Assembly: GCA_019752335.1 (NCBI GenBank)
Contig: JAIEMJ010000023.1
Coordinates: forward strand, 1 to 64,000
Source: Bryobacteraceae bacterium
Lineage (GTDB): Bacteria > Acidobacteriota > Terriglobia > Bryobacterales > Bryobacteraceae
DNA length: 64,000 nucleotides
Direction of reading: 5' to 3'
How positions within the stretch are numbered: the stretch's first letter is position 1; every line of letters starts with the position of its first letter. The translations under genes and the position numbers were made by a program. The notes below the pieces were generated by a model. That model had not been told where the DNA came from. It was given only the letters and a program-made list of their open reading frames with translations, and did not search any database. Positions 33,648-49,965 of the stretch are shown in pieces.

Positions 33648-35700
<2,053 letters not shown>

Positions 35701-35704
<4 letters not shown>

Positions 35705-37335
35705 GTGTAACGTCCAGCAACGACGAGACGGCCCTCCGGGTCACTCACCATTTGGGCGGTGGGGGTCCCGGCAGCCGACGGCGACTCCGGCAGATTCAGC
35801 GACCACCAGCGAGCGGCATCCGTGCGCGACCATTCCTGGATGCCCGCGGCGGCTTCGATCGCCTCGGCCAGTTCCTGCGCGCTGCGCGGCCGCTGGTCCG
35901 GGTCCTTGGCGAGGCAGCGCAGAATCACCGCTTCGAGATCCGCGGGGATGGGGGTTTCCACCCTTTCGGACGGCCGGGTGGGCGTCTTTTGGACGTGCGC
36001 CAGGGACATCGCCGTCGGCGTGGGTTCGTTGAAGACGAGTTGGCCGGTGAGCAGGAAGTAGGCCACGCAACCGAGGCCGTAGATATCCGCCCGCTGGTCA
36101 ATCGCGTCGCTCCCCAACGCGACTTCCGGAGCCATGTAAGCCGGCGTGCCCGTGGCTTGGCCTTCCATGGTCATCAGCGTCGCACCACTATTCGAGGTGA
36201 GCGTCTTCACGAGGCCAAAGTCGAGCACCTTGGTGAAGTCGTAATTCATGCCGAGGCGGCACAGGAAAAGGTTGGTCGGCTTGATGTCGCGATGCACCAG
36301 ACCCTGACGGTGCGCTTCCTCCAAGGAATCACAGGACTGACGGATGATCTGGGCGACGCGGCCGGGCGGCAAGGGGCCGAAGCGCTCGACGATGGTTTGC
36401 AGGTCGAGCCCGTCCAGCAATTCCATCACGTAGAAGAAGCTCTGGTCGCGCGCCATGCCGAAGTCGAACAGGGCCACCGTGTGCGGGGAGCGCAGGCTGG
36501 CCGTCGCGCGGGCCTCTTTTTCGAAACGGCGGCGCAGGGTTTCGGCTTGGCGTCCGCCCTGGTTGGCCAGCACTTCGGGGCGAATCACCTTGATGGCGGC
36601 GTCGCGCTGCAGCATCTTGTGGCGGGCGCGCCACACTTCGCCCATGCCGCCCTTGCCGATGAGGAAGTCGAGTTGGTAGGAGCCCATCTCCTCGGCTTTC
36701 TGGCTGGCCATATGCATGTGGAAGAGCCGTTTGTTGAAAAGATGGCTCCACAGCACGGCCGTGATGAGCGGCAATAGCCAGACGGCGAGCCGGTTGAGCG
36801 GCAGCGGTTCGAAGCCGTAAACCTGCAGATTCACCCAATAGGCCAAGGGCCACATGGAGGCCGAAATGATGGAGGTGGTGAGCTTGAGGCCGGGCGGATT
36901 GGGGATGAGCAATCCGTTGAGGACGATCCACAAGGCCACGAAGGAGACGCCGCGGACGACTTCGTCCTGATGGCTGATGCTGGTTTCGAAAGAGGCGCAC
37001 ATGAAGGCGCCCGCCGCCTCAAAGACGCCGCCCAGGTGAATCAGCGTGATCTTCGAGAACCAATTGAAGCGGTGCGCGGCGGCAAAGCCCAAGGTGAGGA
37101 ATAAAGTGAAGAGCGCCGTTAGGCGCAGCAACGGTTGGTTGAGCGCGAGCCGTACTTCCGGCTGAAAGTAGCCCTGCAAGACAATCATCGCCACCGTGGT
37201 GATGGCGAAAAGATTGGACATCCAGCACAGGCGCGTCGCGGCCTGATTCACCAATTCCGGCGGCATGACGAAGCGCAGCTTGTCTGGCCCACCGCTGGTC
37301 TGGTTCGGCGTGCTGGCCGCTTGAACTACCGGCAT
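35701..37335 (-). CDS. Membrane Ser/Thr protein kinase with N-terminal multi-helix module
   Basis: A 544-residue protein, start at MPVVQAAS. Residues about 40-200 form about six membrane helices with no recognised domain. Residues about 218-490 are a Hanks-type kinase: GKGGMGEVW (227-235), Lys249 in AAIKV, HRDIKPTN (348-355), DFG (372-374) and APE (402-404). Most bacterial kinases of this class have the kinase first and one helix after, so this inverted layout is notable. It may sense a membrane signal. A short tail without a domain follows. The substrate is unknown. Confidence 0.92.
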
Positions 37336-37406
37336 AGTGACACCCTCGAAGGACCCATAGAGATAAGATACAGCTCCCATGAGAAAAGTTTCATTGACTC
37401 CCTTAC

Positions 37407-38705
37407 TTACTTACGCGCAATCTGGAACGAATCCAGCTCACGGCCATCGGCGCCGATTTGACGGATACGGAGCAGTTCGGGGTTGGCGTCGATCTGAGTG
37501 AAGGAGTGCTGGCGGGCCTCGAAATGAGCGGTGAAGGGTAGCCAAGTGCTTGGACGGCCAGTCTTTGCGCCGTCCACCAGGCCCGCGCCGCCAGCGCCCG
37601 TAAGGACGTAAACGACTCCGTTGGGGTCGCGAATTGTCTGGCCGGGAATGGGCTGCTGGCTGCCGAGCGGCGTCGGGTAGGGCTCCGCAACAAACCGGAT
37701 CGGATGGGTGCGCTGGTAGTTATGGACGTGCCCGGCGAAGACGACGGCGACGCCATGGGCTTCAAAGATGGGCGACAACACTCGCAGACGCTGGTGCTCG
37801 GCGTGCTTGCCGGACGAGTGAAAAGGGGCGTGGTGGAAGACGACAAACTTCCAGGGGGCATGGGATTGGGCGAGGTCGTTTTCGAGCCACTGGCGGAGGT
37901 CCGGGCGGGTCCAGTCCATGACGTGGTTGGAGTCGAGGATGGTCCAGTGGACGGGGCCGTAGTCGAAGGAGTAGTTGGCAGCCTGGGGAAACTTCGCGCC
38001 GGCCAGGGCCTTGAATGCCTGCTGATCCGCCGCTGGACCCATAAGCGCCACGGCGTTCCCCGCCGGCCCGTTCAGCGGCGGGCTCCAGACGTGGAAGTAG
38101 GCCAGGCAATCGGGCTGCGCAAGATCGGCGCACTCCTCGAAGTCATGATTGCCGGGCGCGGCCGCGCTGATCCGGGCGCGAAAAACCGGCTGGTAGATGG
38201 GGAACCACTTGCTGAGGTAGTGCTTCAGGCGTCCATTGGGATAGACGATGTCGCCCGGCACGATGACGGCGTCGGGCTGCGCAGCGTTGATGCGGGAAGC
38301 CACGGCACGCTGCCCCGCGCTGCCGGCGCCCGGGTCACCCACGACGGCAAAGCGCGCCGGCGCCTGGGGCGGGGCGATCGCTTTGCCGCGTGCGGTAAAG
38401 ACGGGCGCGCCATCCCGGAGGACGCGATAGTCGAACTCAGCGCCGGGCCGCAGTCCCGCCAGTTCTGCCTCATAGATGCGGAACGGCCGCGTGCCGCGCA
38501 GCGTGACGCGGCGTTGGACGATGCGCTGGACAGGCATCCAGGCGCCGTCGGCTGACTGATGTTCCAGCGCCCAGGTGGCGTCGGCGTCCGGCGCGTGCCA
38601 GAGGATACTCAACCGGTCCGGCGCGGGTCGCGGCCCCAATTGCAGATAGGGTTCGGTGACGAAAGCGGCTTGCGCAAATGACGCCAGCAGCGCGAGCAAC
38701 AGCAT
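37407..38705 (-). CDS. Secreted purple-acid-phosphatase-like metallophosphatase
   Basis: A 432-residue protein with signal peptide (MLLLALLASFAQA). A fibronectin-like N-terminal domain (PAPDRLSILWHAP, RIYEAELAGLRPGAEFDYRV) precedes the calcineurin-type phosphatase domain. Its metal-binding motifs are AVVGDPGAG, VPGDIVYP, PGNHDF, VFHHAPFH and AGHVHNYQR. This order is that of purple acid phosphatases. It would remove phosphate from esters outside the cytoplasm. It begins 1 bp after the NTT-like carrier stop, at the 3' end of the 37-50 kb gene block. Confidence 0.9.
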   Translation of the reverse strand: MLLLALLASFAQAAFVTEPYLQLGPRPAPDRLSILWHAPDADATWALEHQSADGAWMPVQRIVQRRVTLRGTRPFRIYEAELAGLRPGAEFDYRVLRDGAPVFTARGKAIAPPQAPARFAVVGDPGAGSAGQRAVASRINAAQPDAVIVPGDIVYPNGRLKHYLSKWFPIYQPVFRARISAAAPGNHDFEECADLAQPDCLAYFHVWSPPLNGPAGNAVALMGPAADQQAFKALAGAKFPQAANYSFDYGPVHWTILDSNHVMDWTRPDLRQWLENDLAQSHAPWKFVVFHHAPFHSSGKHAEHQRLRVLSPIFEAHGVAVVFAGHVHNYQRTHPIRFVAEPYPTPLGSQQPIPGQTIRDPNGVVYVLTGAGGAGLVDGAKTGRPSTWLPFTAHFEARQHSFTQIDANPELLRIRQIGADGRELDSFQIARK

Positions 38706-38706
38706 C

Positions 38707-40116
38707 TTAGAAGGCCCGGCGGCGGTGCTCCGCCGCAATCCGCGACACCACCCACAGCCACACACCGGTGAGCGCGACGTTGATCCAAGCGAACTCCGTG
38801 GTGGAGAGCTTCAACACTTCGGAGCCCAGGTAAACGATTCCCGCTTGCAGCACATCGCCGGAACGCATGAAGAAGGTATCGATGGCGGCCTTCGCCTTGT
38901 ACTTCGCCTCGCGCGACGTCGGCAGGAAGAGCGCCTGCCGGGCGGTGTTCTGGATCGAGTAGTCCGTCGCGTTCTCAAACGTCTTCGCGACGCGGACCAC
39001 GCTCAGCAGCGGCACCAACGCGAGAATGCTGTAACTCATCAGCGCGATCACCGGCAGGATAAACAGCGCGCCGCGCACGCCCATAAAGCGGAATAGACGC
39101 GAGACGAAGAAGGCTTGCAGGATGGCCCCGGCTAAGTTCACCCAGCCGAAGAACTCGCCGTAGAAGGCGCCAATGTATTGCTTCATGGCCACGGCCGGAT
39201 TCGCGGCGTTAGCCGTGGCGGCCTTCGCCGCGTCCACCACCAGATTGCCGAGCAGATACTCGCCGGAGCTATTCACGATGTTGAGCAACACCATCAGCAC
39301 GGCGATCCAACGCAGGTAGGTATCGCCGAGCACCATTTGAAAGCCCCCGCTGGCGCCGAGCGGCTTCTCCGCCGCGGCCGTCCAGACCTTGTCCGCGCGG
39401 GCGGACTCCAGGCGATCGACGGCGTACACCAAGGCGGCGCAGACGAGCAGTACGCCGGCGCCGAGGAGCATCAGAAAATACGGGTCAGAGCCTTTGACGA
39501 TCTGTCCGGCGGCTTGCGCGCCCAGCCATGCGCCAAGGGAACTGCCGAGGCCAATGAAGGGGAACAACCGCTTGCCCTGGCTCTCCGTGAATAGGTCGTT
39601 GGCGAAGGCCCAAACCTGCGAAATGACAAAGACGTTGAAGATGCCCACCCAGACAAAAAATACGACGCCCTCGCGCGCGCCCTGCTGGCCGGCCAAGTAG
39701 AACAGCACCAGATGCAGCGCGAAGAAGAGGATCACGCCGGTAACCAGCCGCACGCGCTCTACCTTCGACGCCACCCAACCGTACGCGGGCACGACCACTA
39801 ACAACAGCATCGCCTGCAAGGCTGACGAGTAGCTCTTTACCTGGGCCCCGCCTTCGCTCAAAATCAGCGACTCGCGAGCTGTTTTGAGTAAGTAATACCC
39901 CGCCAGCAGCAAGAAGACATTCAAGGTGAGCAGGAGCGTGGTTAAGCCTTCGCCGGCGCGAATGTCGGCGAAGATCGAGAGTACTTTTTCGAGAGCGTTG
40001 CGCGGCTTTGCGCCAACGTGGGAAAACGACGGAAACGAACGCTGCGTGCGCAGCTCCGGCTGCGACTGCAACTGTTCGCGTGGCGTCACCAGGTACGCTC
40101 CACGCCGGCGATGCAC
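38707..40116 (-). CDS. NTT-like (ATP/ADP translocase-related) membrane carrier
   Basis: A protein of up to 469 residues with about 10-12 membrane helices. The opening block LTTLLLTLNVFLLLAGYYLLKTARESLIL matches the start of Tlc/NTT nucleotide transporters and their MFS-like relatives in Acidobacteria. A region with QGKRLFPFIGLGSSLGAWLGA and ATDYSIQNTARQALFLPTSREAKYKAKA are family blocks. True ATP/ADP exchange is not proven: many relatives transport other things or are uncharacterised. The first about 40 residues overlap the upstream gene by 31 bp, so translation may begin later. Confidence 0.75.
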   Translation of the reverse strand: MHRRRGAYLVTPREQLQSQPELRTQRSFPSFSHVGAKPRNALEKVLSIFADIRAGEGLTTLLLTLNVFLLLAGYYLLKTARESLILSEGGAQVKSYSSALQAMLLLVVVPAYGWVASKVERVRLVTGVILFFALHLVLFYLAGQQGAREGVVFFVWVGIFNVFVISQVWAFANDLFTESQGKRLFPFIGLGSSLGAWLGAQAAGQIVKGSDPYFLMLLGAGVLLVCAALVYAVDRLESARADKVWTAAAEKPLGASGGFQMVLGDTYLRWIAVLMVLLNIVNSSGEYLLGNLVVDAAKAATANAANPAVAMKQYIGAFYGEFFGWVNLAGAILQAFFVSRLFRFMGVRGALFILPVIALMSYSILALVPLLSVVRVAKTFENATDYSIQNTARQALFLPTSREAKYKAKAAIDTFFMRSGDVLQAGIVYLGSEVLKLSTTEFAWINVALTGVWLWVVSRIAAEHRRRAF

Positions 40117-41675
40117 GGGCTTTCGCCGCGCCGCAGATAAACCAGCACCTTTTGTTTCGGTTGGGCGGCGCGAGTGAGTTCCGCCAGCAAATAGCCGGAG
40201 CTATTGAAGTCCGGCAGCTTGGCGCTGGTGGCGTTGGGAATCGCCGTGCGTTGTTCGCTTTGGTTGTCGAAATGATGCCACTGGATATTCACGGCGCCGG
40301 CCGAACCGCTAATGTCTTCCCAGGCCAGAGCACCGTCGCGAATCGCGAAACGATCCAACGGCAGAACTTTGCCGAGGAGCGCCTTGCCGATTTTGTTGCG
40401 GCGTTCGATCAGGGTTTGCGTCACCCACTCCGCCGCTTTCGGGTCACTATATTCACCCGTCTCCACGATAGCCTTCAGGTCGGCATCGGTCAACGACATC
40501 ACCTGCTTGGCCGCCCAGAACTCGTCGTCGGGCAAGGCATTCAGGAAGGCCGGATTGGGATACTCCGGCACCCAACGCACGGGGTCAAACGTAGTCGCTT
40601 CGAACCGGCCCACTGAGGGCAGGTCAGGATACTTGGCGAAGTCGACGTAGGAGACGTGCAGGCCGAGCGAGAAGAAATTCTTCGCCGACTCTGACCAGGA
40701 GAAGAACGGCAAGCCGGAGCGCACGCTGTTGGGCTTGGTGCTGGCGCTACCCAACGTGGAGCCAAAATCAAGCAGGTAGTGGCGGACATAGCGAATGCCA
40801 TCCGCCTGCAACGCCACGTCGATATTGTTGATGGCGCGCGAATCCTCGTGGCCCAGCCAGGCGCAGAAGACACGCAGGGCGCGCTGGTCGCGGCGATGCT
40901 CGTGGGGCACCACATCGTTGGGATCGTCCGTGCGGCTGCCGTAGTAGCGCGGGGGCCCGATCGGCTTGCCCGGCAAAGCGAGTGACGCGGTGCCACGATA
41001 CCGGCCATCGGCGGTCTTGGGCACCTTCAGCAGAATCTCGTAGAGGTCACGCAAGGTCATCTTGCGCTTCTTGCCGGCGGCGTTGGCCAGTTCCACGTCC
41101 TCGCCCAACTGGAGTTGATCCTCCTTGAAATAGATGAGGTAATTCTGCGGCACATGGTAGCCCATCGCGTGGAAGATCTTTGAACTGATCCGATCGGCGG
41201 CCGTCGCCATCTCGGGGTTCGACATTGGATCGAACTTGACGAAGTACTGGCGATTGTCGGCGTCCAGCATGCGAAAGCCCGGGGTAACGCCTTCGCTCTT
41301 CACCCCGACGATGGTCCACTTCCCACGCGTGGACGGAGGCGTCGCGTCGCCGGGGCCGCGGCGCAGTTCGTCGGGCGTCATGCGGCGGAAGTAATGGCGC
41401 GGCTCCCACCAATTGTCGTCAAAAGGATTCTCGATGGTGTTGATGCCCATCGCCCGGATCGGCGGCTTGGAACTGCCCGCGGGAGGCTGACGCTCGCCTA
41501 AGTCGCCGAATTGGAGCGAGAAGAGATCGTAGATGTCACTCAACTTACGCGGCTTAAGATTGCCCGTATCGCGCGGTTTGGGCGCGCGCAGGATCGGGTC
41601 ATCGTCATAGAACTTACGCGCGGTGGCGGCGCTGGCGGTGAGGAGAATTAGGAGGGTGAGGCGTCGCATAGTCAT
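40086..41675 (-). CDS. Secreted protein with PI3K/HipA-like kinase-fold signature
   Basis: A 529-residue protein of unknown family with a signal peptide (LTLLILLTASAATA). A Lys at 147 lies in a strand (YFVKFDP), followed by a helix with Glu155 (NPEMATAADRISSKI). At 276-287 comes HEDSRAINNIDV and at 303-305 LLDFGS. This D-x-R-x-x-N-N then DFG order resembles PI3/PI4-kinase and HipA-type active sites. No HExxH, serine-hydrolase or glycosidase motif is present. It is encoded 5 bp after the Omp85-type gene and overlaps the NTT-like gene. The kinase assignment is an inference from motif order only. Confidence 0.6.
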   Translation of the reverse strand: MTMRRLTLLILLTASAATARKFYDDDPILRAPKPRDTGNLKPRKLSDIYDLFSLQFGDLGERQPPAGSSKPPIRAMGINTIENPFDDNWWEPRHYFRRMTPDELRRGPGDATPPSTRGKWTIVGVKSEGVTPGFRMLDADNRQYFVKFDPMSNPEMATAADRISSKIFHAMGYHVPQNYLIYFKEDQLQLGEDVELANAAGKKRKMTLRDLYEILLKVPKTADGRYRGTASLALPGKPIGPPRYYGSRTDDPNDVVPHEHRRDQRALRVFCAWLGHEDSRAINNIDVALQADGIRYVRHYLLDFGSTLGSASTKPNSVRSGLPFFSWSESAKNFFSLGLHVSYVDFAKYPDLPSVGRFEATTFDPVRWVPEYPNPAFLNALPDDEFWAAKQVMSLTDADLKAIVETGEYSDPKAAEWVTQTLIERRNKIGKALLGKVLPLDRFAIRDGALAWEDISGSAGAVNIQWHHFDNQSEQRTAIPNATSAKLPDFNSSGYLLAELTRAAQPKQKVLVYLRRGESPCIAGVERTW

Positions 41676-41680
41676 CGTCC

Positions 41681-42943
41681 TTAAAAAACCGGCTGCGTGA
41701 TATCGGCCCCGAAGCGGCGCTGCCGGAAAACGTCGTTAAACTTTACCCAGACTTGGAAACCCTCCCGGCTGAAGCCAACGTCCACACGGAGAAAGGTCGC
41801 ATTGCGCGCATTGCCGCGCAAGCCGAAACCGTAGCTGCGTTCCAGATTCGAGAAGTTGAGTTGGCCGCGCCGGGAAAAGACCTTGCCCGCGTCCATGAAC
41901 AAGGCGCCATCCAGCCCCGCGAAGATCTCCCAGCGGTACTCGGCGTTGAAGACCACCATGTCACGATCACTAAAGCGGAAGTTGCGAAAGCCGCGCAGAT
42001 CGTCCGAGCCACCCAGAATCGGCTGCAGATAGAAAGGCGCGGTTTCATTGCCATTCGCCTCCGTCAGGACGGTTTTGGCGCGCAAGGCAAAAACCCGGGA
42101 GCGGTTCAAAATCGGGATAAACTGCTGCACCTCGGCATCAATGCGGCGGAAGTTATGGGTATTTAGCTTGATGTCATCAAACCACGTGTATTGAAAAATG
42201 ACATTTCGCCCCGCCTTGGCCGTGATGGGGTTATCGCGCGTGTCGTGCTGCAGAAACACTCCGTAGCGGAAGAAGTTGGTCTGCCGTTGAATACCCGGCG
42301 CCTGGGCTTCGGTGAAGATCCGGTCAGCCGAGATAAAGCGACGGTCGTTGCCCGGTCCAATGTTCATCCACAAACCGCCCACCGTACCGCCAATGGCGAG
42401 TCCGCGGACGGGAGTAAAAACGCTGGTAGCTTCGGCGGAAGTATCTTCCAAACGGTAATTGGAGCGTCCGCCCTTGGTGGAGTTGGCGCCGGGGCCGTAG
42501 TAATTGATGCTGGCGTAATTGTGGTGAACCGTGTAGATGTCCAGGGCGAGTTTGTTTTTAGCCAGGCGCGGCAAGGTCCATTGGTTATCGATCTTGTAAT
42601 AACCGCGCGTGGAAACCTGAGCCGCCGTCCGGAACTGCAGGTATCCCTTGAAAAGATCCTCGCGCGAATACTCTGGCCCTATGGCGAAGCCGCCGCCCGT
42701 CACCATGTTGCCGATCTTGGCGCGAATGCCGTTGAAGCCCTGCGAGAAACGCTCGAGCAGCTTCTCATCTTTGAACCGGCTGAGTAGGTTCTCTGTTTTC
42801 GAAACTTCGTCCGGCTTCAGCCGGGCAGCTTTTTCGCTCCGTGCCTTTTCGATCTCCGCCATCCGGCTATCTTGAGCGAACAAGCCGGCGCCTTGTAACA
42901 GAAACGAAACTATAACCCCAACTGCTAGGTTCCCATTGCGCAT
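41681..42943 (-). CDS. Omp85/BamA-type outer-membrane beta-barrel (surface antigen D15)
   Basis: A 420-residue protein with a signal peptide (GVIVSFLLQGAGLFAQ). It is mostly transmembrane beta-strands and ends in Phe (GADITQPVF). The Omp85 loop-6 signature appears as LGGSDDLRGFRNF with LRGF at 316-319. The N-terminal about 80 residues are helical and show no POTRA repeats, so this is a short single-barrel relative rather than BamA. It may pass or anchor the protein encoded next to it, but no substrate is known. Confidence 0.85.
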   Translation of the reverse strand: MRNGNLAVGVIVSFLLQGAGLFAQDSRMAEIEKARSEKAARLKPDEVSKTENLLSRFKDEKLLERFSQGFNGIRAKIGNMVTGGGFAIGPEYSREDLFKGYLQFRTAAQVSTRGYYKIDNQWTLPRLAKNKLALDIYTVHHNYASINYYGPGANSTKGGRSNYRLEDTSAEATSVFTPVRGLAIGGTVGGLWMNIGPGNDRRFISADRIFTEAQAPGIQRQTNFFRYGVFLQHDTRDNPITAKAGRNVIFQYTWFDDIKLNTHNFRRIDAEVQQFIPILNRSRVFALRAKTVLTEANGNETAPFYLQPILGGSDDLRGFRNFRFSDRDMVVFNAEYRWEIFAGLDGALFMDAGKVFSRRGQLNFSNLERSYGFGLRGNARNATFLRVDVGFSREGFQVWVKFNDVFRQRRFGADITQPVF

Positions 42944-42969
42944 ACTCGATCTTAACAGGAGTACGCGCG

Positions 42970-45156
42970 CTAGGGCCTGCCGGATCTCCCATCAGGAAAC
43001 TTTAGTTGCACCATCGCTTGCGATTGCATCAGGCGCTCCAATGCCTCCGTAGGTGGCTCCGTGCTTTCCGGTTTCGGCGAGCCCTCCAGGACATCCCAGA
43101 GCCGGGTGCGTACGCTGGTGGGCAGAACGCTTTCCAGATACTCCAGCGCCAAGCCGCGCAGTTGCCGGTCTTCGGTGTGCAGCGCGCGAAAAGCGATCTT
43201 CAGCGGTTCGCGCGGCAACACCAGCGCGAGCAGGGAGAAGACATGCTCCAGGCTGAGATTGGAACGTTCGCGGAGTAAGTCGTCGAGAAAATTAAAACGG
43301 TCCTCGGCTTCGTCGCCCGTTGACTCGCGCTTCTCCAAAAGACGATAGCCCTGCCAGATCGGCAGGTTCGTATTCAGTTCGCGTTCGATCACCGCCCAAA
43401 TCGCCGGCTCCGGCAGCGCCAGGCCCGGATGGTGCTGGCGCATCGCATCGAGCGCGCGGCCACATTGAAAGCGAACCTCGAAGCGCGACGCGTCCAGCGC
43501 CTCCACCAGGGCCGCGGCCGCCCGGGGCGAGTGGTGCGCGCGCGCCAATAGCCGCGGGATGCGGCGGCGGATAGCGAAGTCCTCCTGCTCGTCCAACAGG
43601 GCATCGGAAAGCTGCCCCGTGATGGCGGGCATCGACGCCGCCAGACACTTCTCCACTCGCGGCCGCACCTCATCCCAGGCGAGCAGACGGATGAGCTGGG
43701 GCACCACCAACGGGTCCTTCCATTGGCTACCGTCCAGCGCCGCTTTCACCTGCGCGGCATCGCCGGACCGCAAGCTTCCGAGCGTGTCGGCCAACGGGTC
43801 CAGGCTCACCAGGCGAGGAGCGGTGATCTCTGGTTTGGCCGGAGCCGCCGAAACCGGCACCGCGCTGCGCATGATGATCGACATAGTGGTGGAGTCGTGG
43901 ACATCGACCAAGTCCAAATCGACGGCCCGGTCAATCAAGCCTCGCTCCAGGATCACGCGATAGGCCTTATCGAGCCAACTGGCGATGGTACCGGCCAATA
44001 CGGCGAGCAGGATGGTGGCGGCGAGCAACTCCGTGCGGGCCAGCGCCGGGCCCATCCAGATGGCGAATTGGACGATGCCGGCGCCCACGGCGTCACCCAG
44101 CCGGTCACAGCCGACGTCGATCAAGACCTTTACCGAACGCTTGTCGCGCGCCGCGATTGGCGTGTAGAAGATCTCATAACCCGCGCGAAAGAGCGAGCCG
44201 CGCAGGATCAGTTCTAGCGCTCGCACGCTGGCGATCGCCGAAAACACAGGCAGGAAAAGCGCCAGCACGCTGCCCGCGCCCACCGCGAACGGCAGGCTCC
44301 CGACGGTTCGCGCCAGGCCCAGTTTCTCGAGCGACAGCCGGCTCAAGCCCACTTGCACCAGGAACGTCAGCACCTGCGCCGCCGTGTAGAAGAGCGCGAA
44401 ATAGCGCAACAAAGCCGGCGAGCGCCCGCCAAATTGCTGCACCGCGCCGGACTTGAAAAGGTAATCCAACATCGCCGCCGATGTGGTGCCCACCAGCACC
44501 AGCACCGCCAGGCTCCACAGGAAAGGCGCCCGCCCGAAAACGTCGCGCGGCGAAGGTAGCGCTTCAGCCGGCTTGTGCGAGCCCTCGGCCTCACCGCGCA
44601 GCAGACTCAGCGCAACGCCCACGGCCAGATGGCAGGCCGCCAACAGCAGCAGCACCGCGGAGGGCGCAAACCACGCGGCCGTGCGCTCCGCGAGCAGGCC
44701 GCCCGCGATGCCTCCCGCCGTCCCCATGCCGGCGATGCGCCCAAAGCGGACCTTGGCCTCGCGTGGGTCAAACAGTTCACTCGCCAAGGCCCAGAAGCCG
44801 GAGAGCAAGATCGCACCCAGCCCGACGATGTGCAGATAAATGCCGATCACCGCGATGCGCGGCGCCACCGGCAGCATGATCCACTCGGCCAGATGCAGCG
44901 CGGCGCTCACCAGGAAGGTAACCGGCACGGCCAAGCGGGGGCCGGAGTTCGCGAGCAGCCGCGAGAAGAAAAAGCTCAGCACGATCGCCGCTCCCGCCGC
45001 GGCGATTACCATGCCGGGCAAATCCTTGGGCGTGTATTCGGCGAGAAATAGGGCGTCGCGAGCGGCCTTGCCGGCCACCTGATGGGCCAGCATAAAGGCG
45101 GCGCCGGTCATGGTGGTCAGGGTCCACCGCTCGTAGCTGTCGCGCGCACTCCCCAT
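42970..45156 (-). CDS. NTT/MFS-like membrane carrier fused to HEAT-repeat domain
   Basis: A 728-residue protein. The first about 420 residues have about 12 membrane helices and start with KAARDALFLAEYTPKDLP, similar to NTT-type carriers. The C-terminal about 300 residues are helical HEAT-like repeats (VVPQLIRLLAWDEVRPRVEKCL, RRRIPRLLARAHHSPRAAAALVEAL, RFQCGRALDAMRQ). A carrier with such a soluble scaffold is a rare fusion. The start codon overlaps the amidohydrolase stop by 1 bp (TGATG). It may bind a partner protein on the cytosolic side. The transported compound is unknown. Confidence 0.82.
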   Translation of the reverse strand: MGSARDSYERWTLTTMTGAAFMLAHQVAGKAARDALFLAEYTPKDLPGMVIAAAGAAIVLSFFFSRLLANSGPRLAVPVTFLVSAALHLAEWIMLPVAPRIAVIGIYLHIVGLGAILLSGFWALASELFDPREAKVRFGRIAGMGTAGGIAGGLLAERTAAWFAPSAVLLLLAACHLAVGVALSLLRGEAEGSHKPAEALPSPRDVFGRAPFLWSLAVLVLVGTTSAAMLDYLFKSGAVQQFGGRSPALLRYFALFYTAAQVLTFLVQVGLSRLSLEKLGLARTVGSLPFAVGAGSVLALFLPVFSAIASVRALELILRGSLFRAGYEIFYTPIAARDKRSVKVLIDVGCDRLGDAVGAGIVQFAIWMGPALARTELLAATILLAVLAGTIASWLDKAYRVILERGLIDRAVDLDLVDVHDSTTMSIIMRSAVPVSAAPAKPEITAPRLVSLDPLADTLGSLRSGDAAQVKAALDGSQWKDPLVVPQLIRLLAWDEVRPRVEKCLAASMPAITGQLSDALLDEQEDFAIRRRIPRLLARAHHSPRAAAALVEALDASRFEVRFQCGRALDAMRQHHPGLALPEPAIWAVIERELNTNLPIWQGYRLLEKRESTGDEAEDRFNFLDDLLRERSNLSLEHVFSLLALVLPREPLKIAFRALHTEDRQLRGLALEYLESVLPTSVRTRLWDVLEGSPKPESTEPPTEALERLMQSQAMVQLKFPDGRSGRP

Positions 45157-45911
45157 CAGTCCGGCAGCCCGAAGACTTCCTTGGCGGTGCCAAATAGAAT
45201 GTTGCGCTTGTCCTCATCGCTGACAGGTAGTTCAAGTAACTTGAGTAACTCCATGCGCAGATTCTCGGGTAAATCCGTACCGGCCATCAGCCGCTTGCTC
45301 GGGATGCGATGCAGCACTTCCAGCACCTGATGCGGCATCAGGCTCGATAGTTCAAGGTAGATGTTCGCGAACAGCGACGCGGCGACAATAGCTTCACCGT
45401 GGAAGAGTCCGCCGCCGCCGCAGTGCGCGAGGACAAACTTCAGCTCCGGATAGCGGCGCGCCGCAAGTAAGTACATCGACGGCAGCGAAAAGGGAATTCC
45501 TGAACCGGTGTGGACAATCAACGCCATCCGGTTTTCGAGGGCCGTCTCGAAGAGAAACGTACTCGAATCGAGCAGCGGATTCAGCGGCTGAAACTGCGGC
45601 TGAAACTTGAGGGCGCGAAAGCCGTGCACCTCCCGGCAGCGGCGGACCTCATCCCGGAACTCGCGCTCCGGCACAAATGGATTCAAGCAGGCCGCGCCCA
45701 CGAAACGCCCGCGGTAAGTCCGTTGCGCGGCAGCAATTTCGTCGTGCTCCCGGCGGTAGTCCTCCACCAGAGGAAACGGAATCGCGACGGCGTGTTCAAT
45801 GCCGAAGCCGTCCATGGCGCGCACGAGATCCGCGGCGTGATGACGGCGGCCACTGTGCCGCGCGCTCCCGATGTGGACGTGGGTGTCGTAGATGGCAAAG
45901 CCGTCGCGCAT
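45156..45911 (-). CDS. TatD/ACMSD-like amidohydrolase-family protein
   Basis: A 251-residue TIM-barrel hydrolase. YDTHVHIGS at the N-terminus and the later HTGSGIPFS, VLAHCGGGG and GTDLPENLR carry the expected His and Asp metal ligands of the amidohydrolase superfamily, subgroup 2 (DTHVHIG). No signal peptide, so cytosolic. The substrate is unknown. Start and stop touch both neighbours: the previous gene stops right before its ATG, and its stop overlaps the HEAT-carrier start, so it is part of the same operon. Confidence 0.85.
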   Translation of the reverse strand: MRDGFAIYDTHVHIGSARHSGRRHHAADLVRAMDGFGIEHAVAIPFPLVEDYRREHDEIAAAQRTYRGRFVGAACLNPFVPEREFRDEVRRCREVHGFRALKFQPQFQPLNPLLDSSTFLFETALENRMALIVHTGSGIPFSLPSMYLLAARRYPELKFVLAHCGGGGLFHGEAIVAASLFANIYLELSSLMPHQVLEVLHRIPSKRLMAGTDLPENLRMELLKLLELPVSDEDKRNILFGTAKEVFGLPD

Positions 45912-46982
45912 TTAGGCCCCGGTGACTTGCTTGAGTAACTGGAAATAGGCTTTCTTGCGCGCGCTGCTCAGGCCCCAATTCACGGGCGGGCATTGGTAGC
46001 CGTCGGCGTAGTCGCTAGCGCCGGGGTCGAAGTAGCCCCAGGAGGCGTACTCGCTCAGGGCCGACAGGAAGTTGTTCTCGGGCCGGTCGAAGTCGAAGTG
46101 GTCGTCTTCGTTAAACAGGATCGGCATCGGTCGATAGCCTTCCACGGCGCGCGTTTGGCGCACCATCTCAGCGATACGCTTCGGGTCCTTCACGCCGTTG
46201 CCGTGGATGAGCAGAAAGTCAGCGCTCTTCACCACGTTGGGCAAGGGAATCGCGCCACCGCCGTACGAAGTACTCGTCAGCAAGCGCCGGCCCCCGCGAT
46301 TCATGCCCTTTACGGCGTCGATGAGTTCGTGAATGCGGCCGGGTTTCAGAATCTCGTGGTCATAGGCTTTCACGTTCGTCTCGTTGTTCACCTCCACCAG
46401 GACGTTGCGATAGCCCCCGTCGAGCAGCCAGTTCGTCGCATTCGCCACCGCGCGGCGGACGGCAGCTTCGTCGCGCACGTGTTGATCCTGCCCGAAGTAG
46501 AAGTAGCCGACGATGGGCACCATGCCGAGCTCGTCGGCGCGGCGCAAGATGCGCGCCAGGCGCTTCATGAAGGCGGGCCGCAATGAGCCATCGGGGGCGA
46601 TGCCTGAAGTTACCCACGGCTGGCTCTTCGAATAGCCCTCCGGACTGCCGCCCTGCAGGTTAATCGTGAAAGAGAGCAAGCCATGCTGCCGCCAAATGGG
46701 CATGGCGGCGAGAAACTCGCGCACGTTGCGCTCCGCGTCCCACTTCCTGGTGTCAGGATAGGCCCAACGCTTGACGGTTTCCGGATTCAGGTCGTCGAAG
46801 ATCCCCTGCACCATGCGGGAGTTCATCAGCAGGCCTTCGATCTTGCGGCCCTGATAGCTGCGGCCGGCGTAGGTGGGTTGGCCGTTGATGAGGAACTGGT
46901 CGCCGCGAATCGCCACCTCGGTGGGTTTGGCGGCGGCCCGCAGAAGTGTTGGGGCGGCAAGAAGCGTACGTCGAGTGAGCAT
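45912..46982 (-). CDS. Tat-exported TIM-barrel glycosidase-like protein
   Basis: A 356-residue protein starting MLTRRTLLAAPTL, a twin-arginine signal. It appears to be a (beta/alpha)8 hydrolase: VLVEVNNETNVKAYDH could hold an acid/base Glu and MPILFNEDDHFDFD a nucleophile, as in clan A glycosidases. DUF4038/cellulase-like proteins share this outline, but no family is certain. It lies 1 bp upstream of the amidohydrolase gene and 23 bp downstream of the solenoid gene, within one long unit. Confidence 0.72.
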   Translation of the reverse strand: MLTRRTLLAAPTLLRAAAKPTEVAIRGDQFLINGQPTYAGRSYQGRKIEGLLMNSRMVQGIFDDLNPETVKRWAYPDTRKWDAERNVREFLAAMPIWRQHGLLSFTINLQGGSPEGYSKSQPWVTSGIAPDGSLRPAFMKRLARILRRADELGMVPIVGYFYFGQDQHVRDEAAVRRAVANATNWLLDGGYRNVLVEVNNETNVKAYDHEILKPGRIHELIDAVKGMNRGGRRLLTSTSYGGGAIPLPNVVKSADFLLIHGNGVKDPKRIAEMVRQTRAVEGYRPMPILFNEDDHFDFDRPENNFLSALSEYASWGYFDPGASDYADGYQCPPVNWGLSSARKKAYFQLLKQVTGA

Positions 46983-47005
46983 CGGTCTGCCCATGATATC
47001 CCGCG

Positions 47006-48517
47006 CTACAGCACGTTCGCCGGGAGCTTATCGCCCTTGCCCCGGAAGTTGATCTGCAAGGAGTGCAACTCCTCGCCGAGCAGGCCACGAGCCAGCGCCA
47101 CTTGCGCGATCAGCCGCAGTTCGACGTCCTTCACTTGCTCGAGCAGCGGCTCCGCCAGATCCGGATGATTGGCCCCCAGGCCCATCATCAAGCCGCGCAT
47201 CAGTTGCGTGGATGGCCATTCGTCGCGATCCGCCAGGTTGGGCTCGTCGGGATCGAGATCGCGCTTCAGGCAGCGCGTGATCGCCGCGAACGATCCTTCA
47301 ACCAACTGGCTTTGGAGTTGAGGAGTGAGTAACTTGATCAACTCGTCATCGGCCATCGCCATGATCACGCTCAAGATCGACATGGCGCGTTGCAACTCCG
47401 GCAGTAACTCGATGGCGCGGGTGACGGTAGCCCGCGCGGCATCGGCGTCTTTCGTACCCACGGCGTCGAGAACGGTTGCCAGGGCGCGGGCCTTTAGGTC
47501 AGCGTCCTTCATCTGGCCCGCTTGCTTCATCGCCTCCCGCGGATCCTTTTGCGCTAGCTCGCTTAAGCGTTGCAACATCTGCCCCTCTATAGCGAACGGA
47601 CCCATCATTTCGGCGGCCTTCTGGTCACTCTGCCCCGTCCCGGACGCGCTCATGGAAGTCGTATTGTTGCCCAAAGATTCCCGGCCCTTCGGGTAGCGTT
47701 CCAGGGCCTCCTTCAGCATCGGCCGAGATACGAGAATCTCGTCGAGTAACTTCGGCTCAAATTGCCGGATGACATGAGACGTATCGAAGATCATCGCATC
47801 CATGGCGGTCTGCAGCAGCACCGGACCCTTCTCGCCGTTGAGCGAGAGCGCGCTGCCCTTCGCAAACTTCGCCTCGGCGACACGGCCGAGTAACATCGTG
47901 ACGGCGCTCTGCACCGAAGTCCTCGGCAGCGTCGCGGCGCGCTTTACGAGTAAGTTGGGGAATTCGCCTCCGCCGTTGGCTCCATACGCGGTCACCGCGC
48001 GGCCGAAGAGAATTACCTGGCGCGGATCGTCGACGGGAAGTTTCTCGAGCAAAAGATTCAACGCCAGAAACGGATAATACCCGCCGGAATAAGTCTCGAA
48101 GAGTTCCACCGCGGCGGCCGTCTTGTCACGTTGCAACAAGGTGCGCACAAGACTCTCATAAAGGGCCGGCTTGCGGCTGGGATCCGCCGGTTGGTAGATG
48201 CCCACACGTTCGATAGCCTCATCCAGATCGACCTCAGCCAAACTCGCCAGTACCCTTCCCTGCTGCACGTCCCGAACTTCCGCCGGCAACTGCTGCGTGC
48301 CGGAAAAAGCTTCGGTGAGTAGTTTTACTGATTTCTTGCGGTCCAGTTTTCCGTAAAGCTCACCCAGGTCGCGCAGCAGCAGTACCTGGACGCTGGGGTT
48401 CGCCACGGAGACTGATGCCGCGGTCTGATCCAGAATTTTCCGTGCCTGGGCTTTCCGTGCCGCGTTCGGCTCAGCGGCGTAAGTTAGCGCGGTGATCAGC
48501 AGCAGGGCGAGCTTCAT
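47006..48517 (-). CDS. Secreted alpha-solenoid protein of unknown function
   Basis: A 503-residue protein with a signal peptide (LALLLITALTYA). The rest is nearly all helical, with TPR-like pairs (LLLRDLGELYGKLDRKKSVKLLTEAF, ALYESLVRTLLQRDKTAAAVELFE, ALATVLDAVGTKDADAARATVTRAIELL). No catalytic residues. It overlaps the sulfatase gene by 4 bp (ATGA) and could be its scaffold. Acidobacterial homologues are usually listed only as hypothetical. Confidence 0.75.
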   Translation of the reverse strand: MKLALLLITALTYAAEPNAARKAQARKILDQTAASVSVANPSVQVLLLRDLGELYGKLDRKKSVKLLTEAFSGTQQLPAEVRDVQQGRVLASLAEVDLDEAIERVGIYQPADPSRKPALYESLVRTLLQRDKTAAAVELFETYSGGYYPFLALNLLLEKLPVDDPRQVILFGRAVTAYGANGGGEFPNLLVKRAATLPRTSVQSAVTMLLGRVAEAKFAKGSALSLNGEKGPVLLQTAMDAMIFDTSHVIRQFEPKLLDEILVSRPMLKEALERYPKGRESLGNNTTSMSASGTGQSDQKAAEMMGPFAIEGQMLQRLSELAQKDPREAMKQAGQMKDADLKARALATVLDAVGTKDADAARATVTRAIELLPELQRAMSILSVIMAMADDELIKLLTPQLQSQLVEGSFAAITRCLKRDLDPDEPNLADRDEWPSTQLMRGLMMGLGANHPDLAEPLLEQVKDVELRLIAQVALARGLLGEELHSLQINFRGKGDKLPANVL

Positions 48518-49965
48518 AGTGCCGCCGCCGCGCCGGGAATCTCGCGGCCGGCGAAACGCGGATCGCCACCGGTGGCCTTGAGTAACTCCTCCATCCGGCC
48601 TTGTAAGCTATCGACGAGCTTCTTCAATTCCGGATTGTCGATCCGCATCGCCAAACGCGTGCGCTGATGCGGGAGTAACTTGTACTTCCCCACTAGGTTA
48701 TTCATCTGGTGTGGATCTTTTTCGAGATCGTATAACTCGTCCAGGTCCCAAATGCCGTAATACTGCATCAGGCTATAGCGCTCCGTGCGCAGGCCGTGAA
48801 TCGTCGGCGTGGCCGGGAAGTCGCGCTCCCATTCGTATTCGTAGAGAAACTCGGTGCGGCCCGGGGCCTGGGCGCTACGCATCACCGGCAGCAAGGATTG
48901 TCCATGCATCGACGGCGGCGGGCTGATGCCCGCGGCGGCCAGGAACGTCGGTGCGATATCGAGGTTCAGCGCGAACTGCTTGCGGCGCCCCGGCGAGAAC
49001 AGCTCCGGGCAATGCATCAGCAGCGGCACGCGCAACGAAGGCTCGTGCATGGTGCGCTTGTCCACCAGGCCATGCTCACCCCACAGGTAACCGTTGTCGC
49101 CCATGTAGACGATCAGCGTGTCGTTGAGGATGCCCTTCTTCTCGAGCGCCGCCACCACGCGTCCAGTGGACTCGTCAATCGCCGCGAGACAACGGGCATA
49201 GCCCAGGTAGAGGTCTTCCAACGGCATCGTCTGGCCAATCGCTCCGTCGACGCCATGCCGCGTGAAGCGTCGGCGGCGCAGCCATTCGGGCTTCTGCTCG
49301 TACCAATCCTCGCGATACCACATGCTCTCCGGCCGCGGCATACGCTGGCCGGCGTAGAGGTCCTTGTGGCGCGGCGCCGGCTGGAAAGGCGCGTGGACCG
49401 CCTTGTGCGAGAGATACAACAGGAACGGCCCGTTTTGTTTCGCGATGAACTGCTCGGCCTCGTCGGTAAGCGTGTCCGTGATGTAGCCCGCCTTCTTGCC
49501 ACGCTGGCCATTGATGTTCAGCTCGCAATCGAAGTACTGCCCTTGGCCTTCGAAGCTCACCCAATGATCGAAGCCCGGACGCGGCTCGTCCGAAGCACCG
49601 CCCATGTGCCATTTGCCGAGAAAACCCGTGCGGTAGCCGTTCTTTTGCAAGAGCACGGGAAAGGTGGGCAAACGCGGATCGAGCGGCGTGAAATTGTCCT
49701 GCACCTTGTGCGTATGCGGATAGACGCCCGTGAGAATGGACGCGCGGCTGGGCGAACACAACGACGACGTGACGAAGGCATTCTCGAAATAGAGGCCGCC
49801 TTGCACCAACCGGTCCAGGTGCGGCGTCTTCACCCAGGGGTGGCCGGCGCAGGAGAGAAAGTCGAAGCGATGGTCGTCAGTCAGTATAAAGACGATATTG
49901 CGCTTGCGCGCTTGCGCGGCCAGGGCAGGAGCGAGAGCGGCTTGCAGAGCTTGGCGTCGAGTCAT
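48514..49965 (-). CDS. Arylsulfatase-type sulfatase
   Basis: A 483-residue type I sulfatase with a short Tat-like signal (MTRRQALQAALAPALAAQA). Catalytic Cys70 lies in CSPSR, which formylglycine-generating enzyme converts to fGly. Metal and substrate motifs ILTDDHR, LTGVYPHTHKV and GKWHMGG are intact, and YMGDNGYLWGEHGL supplies further metal ligands. It probably cleaves sulfate from a sulfated polysaccharide, but family S1 subgrouping needs a database. No FGE gene is in the window. First gene of the 37-50 kb block. Confidence 0.93.
   Translation of the reverse strand: MTRRQALQAALAPALAAQARKRNIVFILTDDHRFDFLSCAGHPWVKTPHLDRLVQGGLYFENAFVTSSLCSPSRASILTGVYPHTHKVQDNFTPLDPRLPTFPVLLQKNGYRTGFLGKWHMGGASDEPRPGFDHWVSFEGQGQYFDCELNINGQRGKKAGYITDTLTDEAEQFIAKQNGPFLLYLSHKAVHAPFQPAPRHKDLYAGQRMPRPESMWYREDWYEQKPEWLRRRRFTRHGVDGAIGQTMPLEDLYLGYARCLAAIDESTGRVVAALEKKGILNDTLIVYMGDNGYLWGEHGLVDKRTMHEPSLRVPLLMHCPELFSPGRRKQFALNLDIAPTFLAAAGISPPPSMHGQSLLPVMRSAQAPGRTEFLYEYEWERDFPATPTIHGLRTERYSLMQYYGIWDLDELYDLEKDPHQMNNLVGKYKLLPHQRTRLAMRIDNPELKKLVDSLQGRMEELLKATGGDPRFAGREIPGAAAAL

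Follow-up and report, generated by a model that had tools for sequence, protein, structure and literature searches.

To our knowledge, few bacterial kinases act outside the cytoplasm (spore-coat CotH and injected effectors), and the periplasm is generally seen as an ATP-free compartment. In the animal secretory pathway, Fam20C and related kinases combine an extracytoplasmic kinase fold with ATP brought across the membrane, in the Fam20C system by transporters unrelated to NTTs; these kinases reside in the eukaryotic Golgi and have no Omp85 partner. Here we describe a gene set in positions 1 to 64,000 of contig JAIEMJ010000023.1 from a Bryobacteraceae bacterium (GCA_019752335.1; Acidobacteriota), the 64,000-nucleotide stretch referred to below as the window. 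It encodes a probable exported kinase (KIN), an Omp85-superfamily barrel (OMP), two NTT (ATP/ADP translocase) homologues (CAR1 and CAR2), a metallophosphatase (PAP) and a membrane Ser/Thr kinase (STK). A bacterial system close in kind is CotH of Bacillus, for which we know of no association with NTT or Omp85 proteins. CotH, likewise an atypical kinase with this class of fold, targets surface-layer proteins (PMC7821199, PMC12189002), but it belongs to the Gram-positive spore coat and has no DFG motif (PMC12189002), whereas KIN has one. Among carriers, NTT-HEAT proteins are widespread in free-living bacteria and functionally uncharacterised, according to a survey (PMC5381601), in the consulted passages of which linkage to exported kinases or phosphatases is not mentioned; CAR1 has this architecture. 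OMP resembles the POTRA-less 'noNterm' Omp85 class, barrels without an N-terminal POTRA domain for which the sole suggested role is in the biogenesis of membrane proteins (PMC4104836), yet OMP is linked to an exported kinase gene. Each component superfamily is known, and no paper describing such a combination was found in the open-access literature searched (subscription literature lay outside the search).

KIN (40086..41675, minus strand) encodes a 529-aa protein that an earlier note, made from the sequence of the window alone, had described as bearing a signal peptide and a kinase-like order of motifs, a description that structure prediction bears out. Searches with the single KIN sequence returned no Pfam, NCBIfam or PDB match, and identification therefore required a family alignment and a structure. 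An alignment of 39 relatives was used for both the AlphaFold model, which had a mean predicted local distance difference test score (pLDDT) of 91.7 and a predicted template-modelling score (pTM) of 0.91, and the residue counts given below. The protein comprises a signal peptide (residues ~1-19), a kinase domain (~110-437) and a C-terminal Ig-like beta domain (~438-529), the last of which matches Ig-like folds weakly (SCAB1 Ig domain, E 0.096) and offers no functional clue. The VIA-align matches listed for the model are kinase-fold proteins with Z up to 14.6, and the nearest solved structures are CtkA (Z 14.6), Fam20C (13.7), CotH (12.9), PI4KII (12.8) and HipT/HipA (about 10-12). According to the model, KIN has a two-lobed protein-kinase-like fold. 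Residues were matched to kinase positions through motif order and spacing rather than superposed coordinates; on this basis the catalytic residues K147 (38/39), D278 (39/39), N283 (37/39) and D303 (39/39) are retained, as are E155 (36/39) and G305 (39/39). N283 is located at Asp+5 from D278, a spacing as in the kinase HRD loop, and D303-F-G constitutes the DFG motif. A signal-peptide-like hydrophobic N-terminus is present in 38 of the 39 relatives, being of Sec-type in the window KIN, and no lipobox-like site was found among the 39. Taken from sequence and model, KIN is probably an exported, active kinase.

The window KIN had no match to the HipA families (PF07804, PF20613) at E<=1. Some family members match HipA_2 or HipA_C weakly, HipA_2 being matched by 9/39 relatives (best E 0.0033), below the Pfam cut-off where scores are shown. 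None of the 39 members matched the Fam20C family (PF06702) at E<=1. HipA and HipT are toxins of the cytoplasm that are paired with antitoxins, whereas KIN carries a signal peptide and an additional Ig-like domain. Within the kinase superfamily, KIN is therefore best regarded as a new family that falls in the HipA/CtkA/Fam20/CotH region but is a member of none of those families. The order has KIN in 61 of the 200 genomes examined and the phylum in 61 of 396; in one genome scan, nearly all of the best 80 of 500 relatives came from acidobacterial records, and a plasmid search did not find KIN on plasmids. Individual loci show tandem KIN copies (L108 and L131) or a stop that splits KIN into two reading frames (L100), and in a record titled Arcobacter sp. 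(L123) the whole OMP-KIN-CAR2/CAR1-STK block is present in its acidobacterial form, the contig being probably misbinned. Among cultured carriers of KIN, Edaphobacter aggregans DSM 19364 (L128) shows OMP-KIN alone in the stretch covered, while strain F-183 (L083) also has the carriers and STK.

Both carriers are NTT homologues by profile, as the earlier note had supposed. CAR2 (38707..40089, minus strand) matches the TLC/NTT family PF03219 at 41.9 bits (cut-off 21), and its profile matches the chlamydial ADP,ATP carrier 9j3n (1.8e-20) and plant NTT1 9j3j (1e-13). CAR1 (42970..45156, minus strand; 728 aa) consists of an NTT-like membrane domain followed by C-terminal HEAT repeats. As a single sequence it scores 17.6 against the PF03219 cut-off of 21 and its HEAT match is weak; its profile matches plant NTT1 9j3j at 4e-16 and aligns with that of CAR2 across the whole membrane domain (probability 99.6).

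The presence of these carriers tracks that of KIN across genomes, the co-occurrence suggested for examination by the earlier note. Within the 200 genomes of the order, an NTT is present in 58 of the 61 genomes with KIN (the exceptions being G065, G066 and G136) versus 24 of the 139 without it; at genus level the corresponding counts are 33/34 and 8/41 genera, and phylum-wide 58/61 and 96/335 genomes. Several of the genomes counted are incomplete metagenome-assembled genomes, and the genome lists were hand-transcribed into scripts. We rejected mere genome richness as the explanation on the basis of a control: cytosolic HipA, patchily distributed and of the same fold class, shows no association with NTTs (odds ratio 0.76, p 0.38), and general kinase richness is therefore not the cause. 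NTT genes are found near KIN at 73 of 116 scorable loci (63%) in nine arrangements. On the KIN tree at least 28 changes between having and lacking an NTT close by are required, so the linkage has repeatedly been formed, lost or reshuffled. In the 7.2-Mb source genome no more than three NTT-type carriers were detectable and, since all three adjoin a KIN gene, the adjacency is more than chance.

A second exported kinase family, KIN2, adjoins CAR2 in four genomes of the order that lack KIN and retain CAR2. KIN2, which is short and likewise exported, has distinct motifs, N-x-D-R-x3-N and I-D-H-S/T-R, and sub-threshold Pfam matches to PI3_PI4_kinase (4e-5), HipA_2 and Fam20C (0.0013-0.002). Its profile fails to align with that of KIN and, judged from these comparisons, KIN2 stands in for KIN as a non-homologous kinase beside the carrier. 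One or other kinase is present in 75 of the 82 NTT genomes and both are absent from 110 of the 118 NTT-free genomes (p 5.6e-37 uncorrected). Among genus-readable genomes, NTT and kinase were both present or both absent in three genera (g2, g12 and g14), and in 5/7 in a fourth (g8). As a further test, CAR2 loci were taken from other parts of the phylum, in lineages that had yielded no KIN. At eight of these loci (L249-L255, L257) between one and four KIN2-like genes flank CAR2; a signal peptide is visible in many of them and the catalytic residues are degenerate in some, and a calcineurin-like phosphatase gene lies alongside the KIN2 arrays at four of the loci checked; neither KIN2-like nor such phosphatase genes were present at L256, L260, L262 and L263. 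The pairing of carrier and exported kinase is a strong rule, not an absolute one. At L249 (2013-7819), L250, L251, L255 and L257, CAR2 is surrounded by an array of KIN2-type genes, two to four in number, in which intact copies are mixed with catalytically degenerate-looking ones that may be pseudokinases, and at L230 (9533-11812) a 760-aa open reading frame joins a KIN2 kinase domain to a long C-terminal extension like a TolB/WD40-like propeller.

OMP (41681..42943, minus strand) has a signal peptide and was correctly recognised in the earlier note as an Omp85-type barrel, matching PF01103 at 65.6 bits (cut-off 24) and carrying the LRGF and RFxD barrel motifs. Only ~75 residues separate its signal peptide from the barrel, and no Pfam match to POTRA domains of the BamA/TamA/TpsB type was obtained. 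The OMP gene is located directly upstream of KIN at 130 of 137 distinct loci across Acidobacteriota, the seven others being mostly second copies of tandem KIN pairs or contig-end loci; OMP and KIN are a fixed pair. PAP (37407..38705, minus strand) is an exported calcineurin-like metallophosphatase, matching Metallophos PF00149 at 66.1 bits (cut-off 21.5) with intact metal motifs (GD, GD, GNHD, HH and GHxH). The earlier description of a secreted purple-acid-phosphatase-like enzyme holds as to the metallophosphatase and not as to a purple acid phosphatase proper, for which the cut-offs are not reached (Pur_ac_phosph_N 15.1 vs 30 bits, Metallophos_C 15.6 vs 23 bits). A phosphatase, metallo- or PAP2-type, is found <=1.5 kb from the OMP-KIN core at 45 of 108 loci (42%), comprising 26 loci with a PAP-family metallophosphatase and 19 with a PAP2-type enzyme. 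PAP-family counts peak sharply with proximity to OMP-KIN (26 in the first kilobase, 0-1 in each further kilobase), and the PAP2-type phosphatase, which directly follows KIN at many loci, shows a like drop with distance. Of the arrangement in the window, then, neighbourhood is conserved in relatives and the exact five-gene order, one of many, is not; we rejected that order as a conserved unit, only OMP-KIN being near-universal while carriers and phosphatase vary in position.

The five minus-strand genes were confirmed in the open reading frames of the window at 37407-45156, transcribed leftwards as CAR1 (45156-42970), OMP (42943-41681), KIN (41675-40086), CAR2 (40089-38707) and PAP (38705-37407). 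The spacing differs from that first reported. The CAR2 open reading frame extends to 40116, but translation most likely starts at GTG 40089, a codon overlapping the KIN stop (GTGA), and the true KIN/CAR2 overlap would therefore be a few bases rather than 31. Similarly, the PAP open reading frame extends to GTG 38765, and its start is most likely ATG 38705, one base past the CAR2 stop, from which the protein opens with a signal-peptide-like stretch. With these revised starts the gene unit is tighter than the earlier note had it. The same-strand run also extends beyond the five genes at both ends, and the set of five was incomplete as proposed. STK (35701..37380, minus strand), a multi-pass membrane protein with a C-terminal Hanks-type Ser/Thr kinase domain, starts 26 bp past PAP, and its homologues lie within 150 bp, on the same strand, of 30 of 38 close CAR1 homologues; STK belongs to the gene set as a conserved CAR1 partner. 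At the other end, an amidohydrolase gene shares a single base with the start of CAR1 and, with TIM-barrel-like, hypothetical and sulfatase genes (45156-49965; same strand, small overlaps or gaps), leads into CAR1. None of these genes was recurrent beside KIN elsewhere, and the amidohydrolase, TIM-barrel and sulfatase genes were therefore dropped as locus members. Past STK and a plus-strand elongation-factor-P-like gene lies an IMP dehydrogenase gene (33648-35108), on the same strand as the locus.

On balance, we consider it reasonably likely that the locus is an envelope phosphorylation module in which NTTs fuel an exported kinase and a phosphatase reverses or recycles its work. KIN would leave the cytoplasm by the Sec route and act as an ATP-dependent kinase in the periplasm or, if carried further, at the surface. 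Outside the cytoplasm ATP is normally lacking, and we therefore propose that CAR2 and CAR1, in the inner membrane, take up periplasmic ADP in exchange for cytoplasmic ATP, so that the kinase is fed and ADP is recovered. OMP would be the partner of KIN, as a docking site, a substrate or a path for KIN or its product to the outer leaflet. The exported metallophosphatase (elsewhere a PAP2-type or other calcineurin-like enzyme) would strip phosphate or recycle spent nucleotide. The STK-CAR1 neighbourhood suggests that STK, in the cytoplasm, may regulate the carrier. The exporter-kinase-phosphatase scheme of the earlier note thus gains support from the fold, the gene neighbourhoods and the carriers' tracking of KIN2, while the pathway itself (kinase activity and substrate, direction of transport, role of OMP, reversal by the phosphatase, regulation by STK) is what we infer. 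Both outcomes that the note had named as refuting its reading, a fold unlike a kinase and genes that are not neighbours in relatives, were looked for and did not occur. We give slightly better than even chances to a broader proposal, that acidobacterial NTTs run in the opposite direction to their relatives in parasites and deliver ATP outward to exported kinases from at least two unrelated families, with exported phosphatases as their counterparts, the trio having been assembled repeatedly from non-homologous parts.

Several observations weigh against this reading. Gene adjacency by itself is not proof of function. Characterised NTTs come from parasites and plastids and serve uptake or exchange of ATP or nucleotides (PMC5381601). 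KIN scores under the Pfam cut-offs for HipA families, and the coupling P-values account for shared ancestry at the level of the genus tallies only. No NTT lies inside 5.5 kb at 43 scorable KIN loci, though 58/61 KIN genomes carry one somewhere, and the third OMP-KIN copy of the source genome (C18:144543-146042, L036) has no carrier alongside. At L256, L260, L262, L263, L231, L232 and L236 the CAR2 homologue lacks any recognised kinase in its vicinity, and 7 of the 82 NTT genomes lack both kinase families.

The strongest competing explanation retains the NTT supply of ATP and differs in substrate only: KIN would be an exported lipid, glycan or small-molecule kinase phosphorylating an envelope head group, from which a PAP2-type or metallophosphatase removes the phosphate. 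PI4KII and Fam20B, of the same fold class, phosphorylate such lipid or glycan groups, PI4KII matches the KIN model at Z ~12.8, and KIN2 matches PI3_PI4_kinase at 4e-5; the PAP2 superfamily, moreover, often acts on lipid phosphates. However, the protein kinases CtkA, Fam20C and HipT score as high or nearly so, metallophosphatases are at least as common as PAP2 enzymes (26 vs 19 loci), and the window contains no gene making an obvious lipid or glycan substrate, so that we regard a substrate of this kind as possible but rather unlikely. It is quite unlikely that the kinase fold carries out other extracellular chemistry (AMPylation, glutamylation) or is a dead scaffold, with the NTTs carrying another nucleotide or cofactor. 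Some kinase-fold enzymes do perform non-kinase reactions and some KIN2 copies look degenerate at catalytic residues, but almost every one of the 39 KIN sequences retains the catalytic Lys, Asp and Asn and the metal-binding Asp, unlike typical pseudokinases, and a linked phosphatase at 42% of loci fits phosphotransfer.

Nucleotide salvage, in which the barrel and PAP degrade external nucleotides for uptake by the NTTs, with KIN either incidental or itself a nucleoside-salvage enzyme, draws on the import of nucleotides by known NTTs (PMC5381601), on the capacity of metallophosphatases to act on nucleotides and on the nearby IMP dehydrogenase gene. It leaves unexplained why the carriers track two unrelated exported kinase families and why OMP pairs with KIN rather than with the carriers. 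PAP2-type phosphatases would be unusual in such a pathway, and an exported kinase without exported ATP could not salvage nucleosides; we therefore hold salvage to be very unlikely.

The conserved set in soil Acidobacteria suggests that ATP is sent outward to phosphorylate a component of the envelope, and no known bacterial system has been so described. If the envelope phosphorylation reading is true, it would provide a testable role for POTRA-less Omp85 barrels and for carriers of the NTT and NTT-HEAT types in free-living bacteria, which are functionally uncharacterised (PMC5381601). It would also mean that reversible phosphorylation of the cell envelope extends phylum-wide, in parallel to the secretory-pathway kinases of animals.

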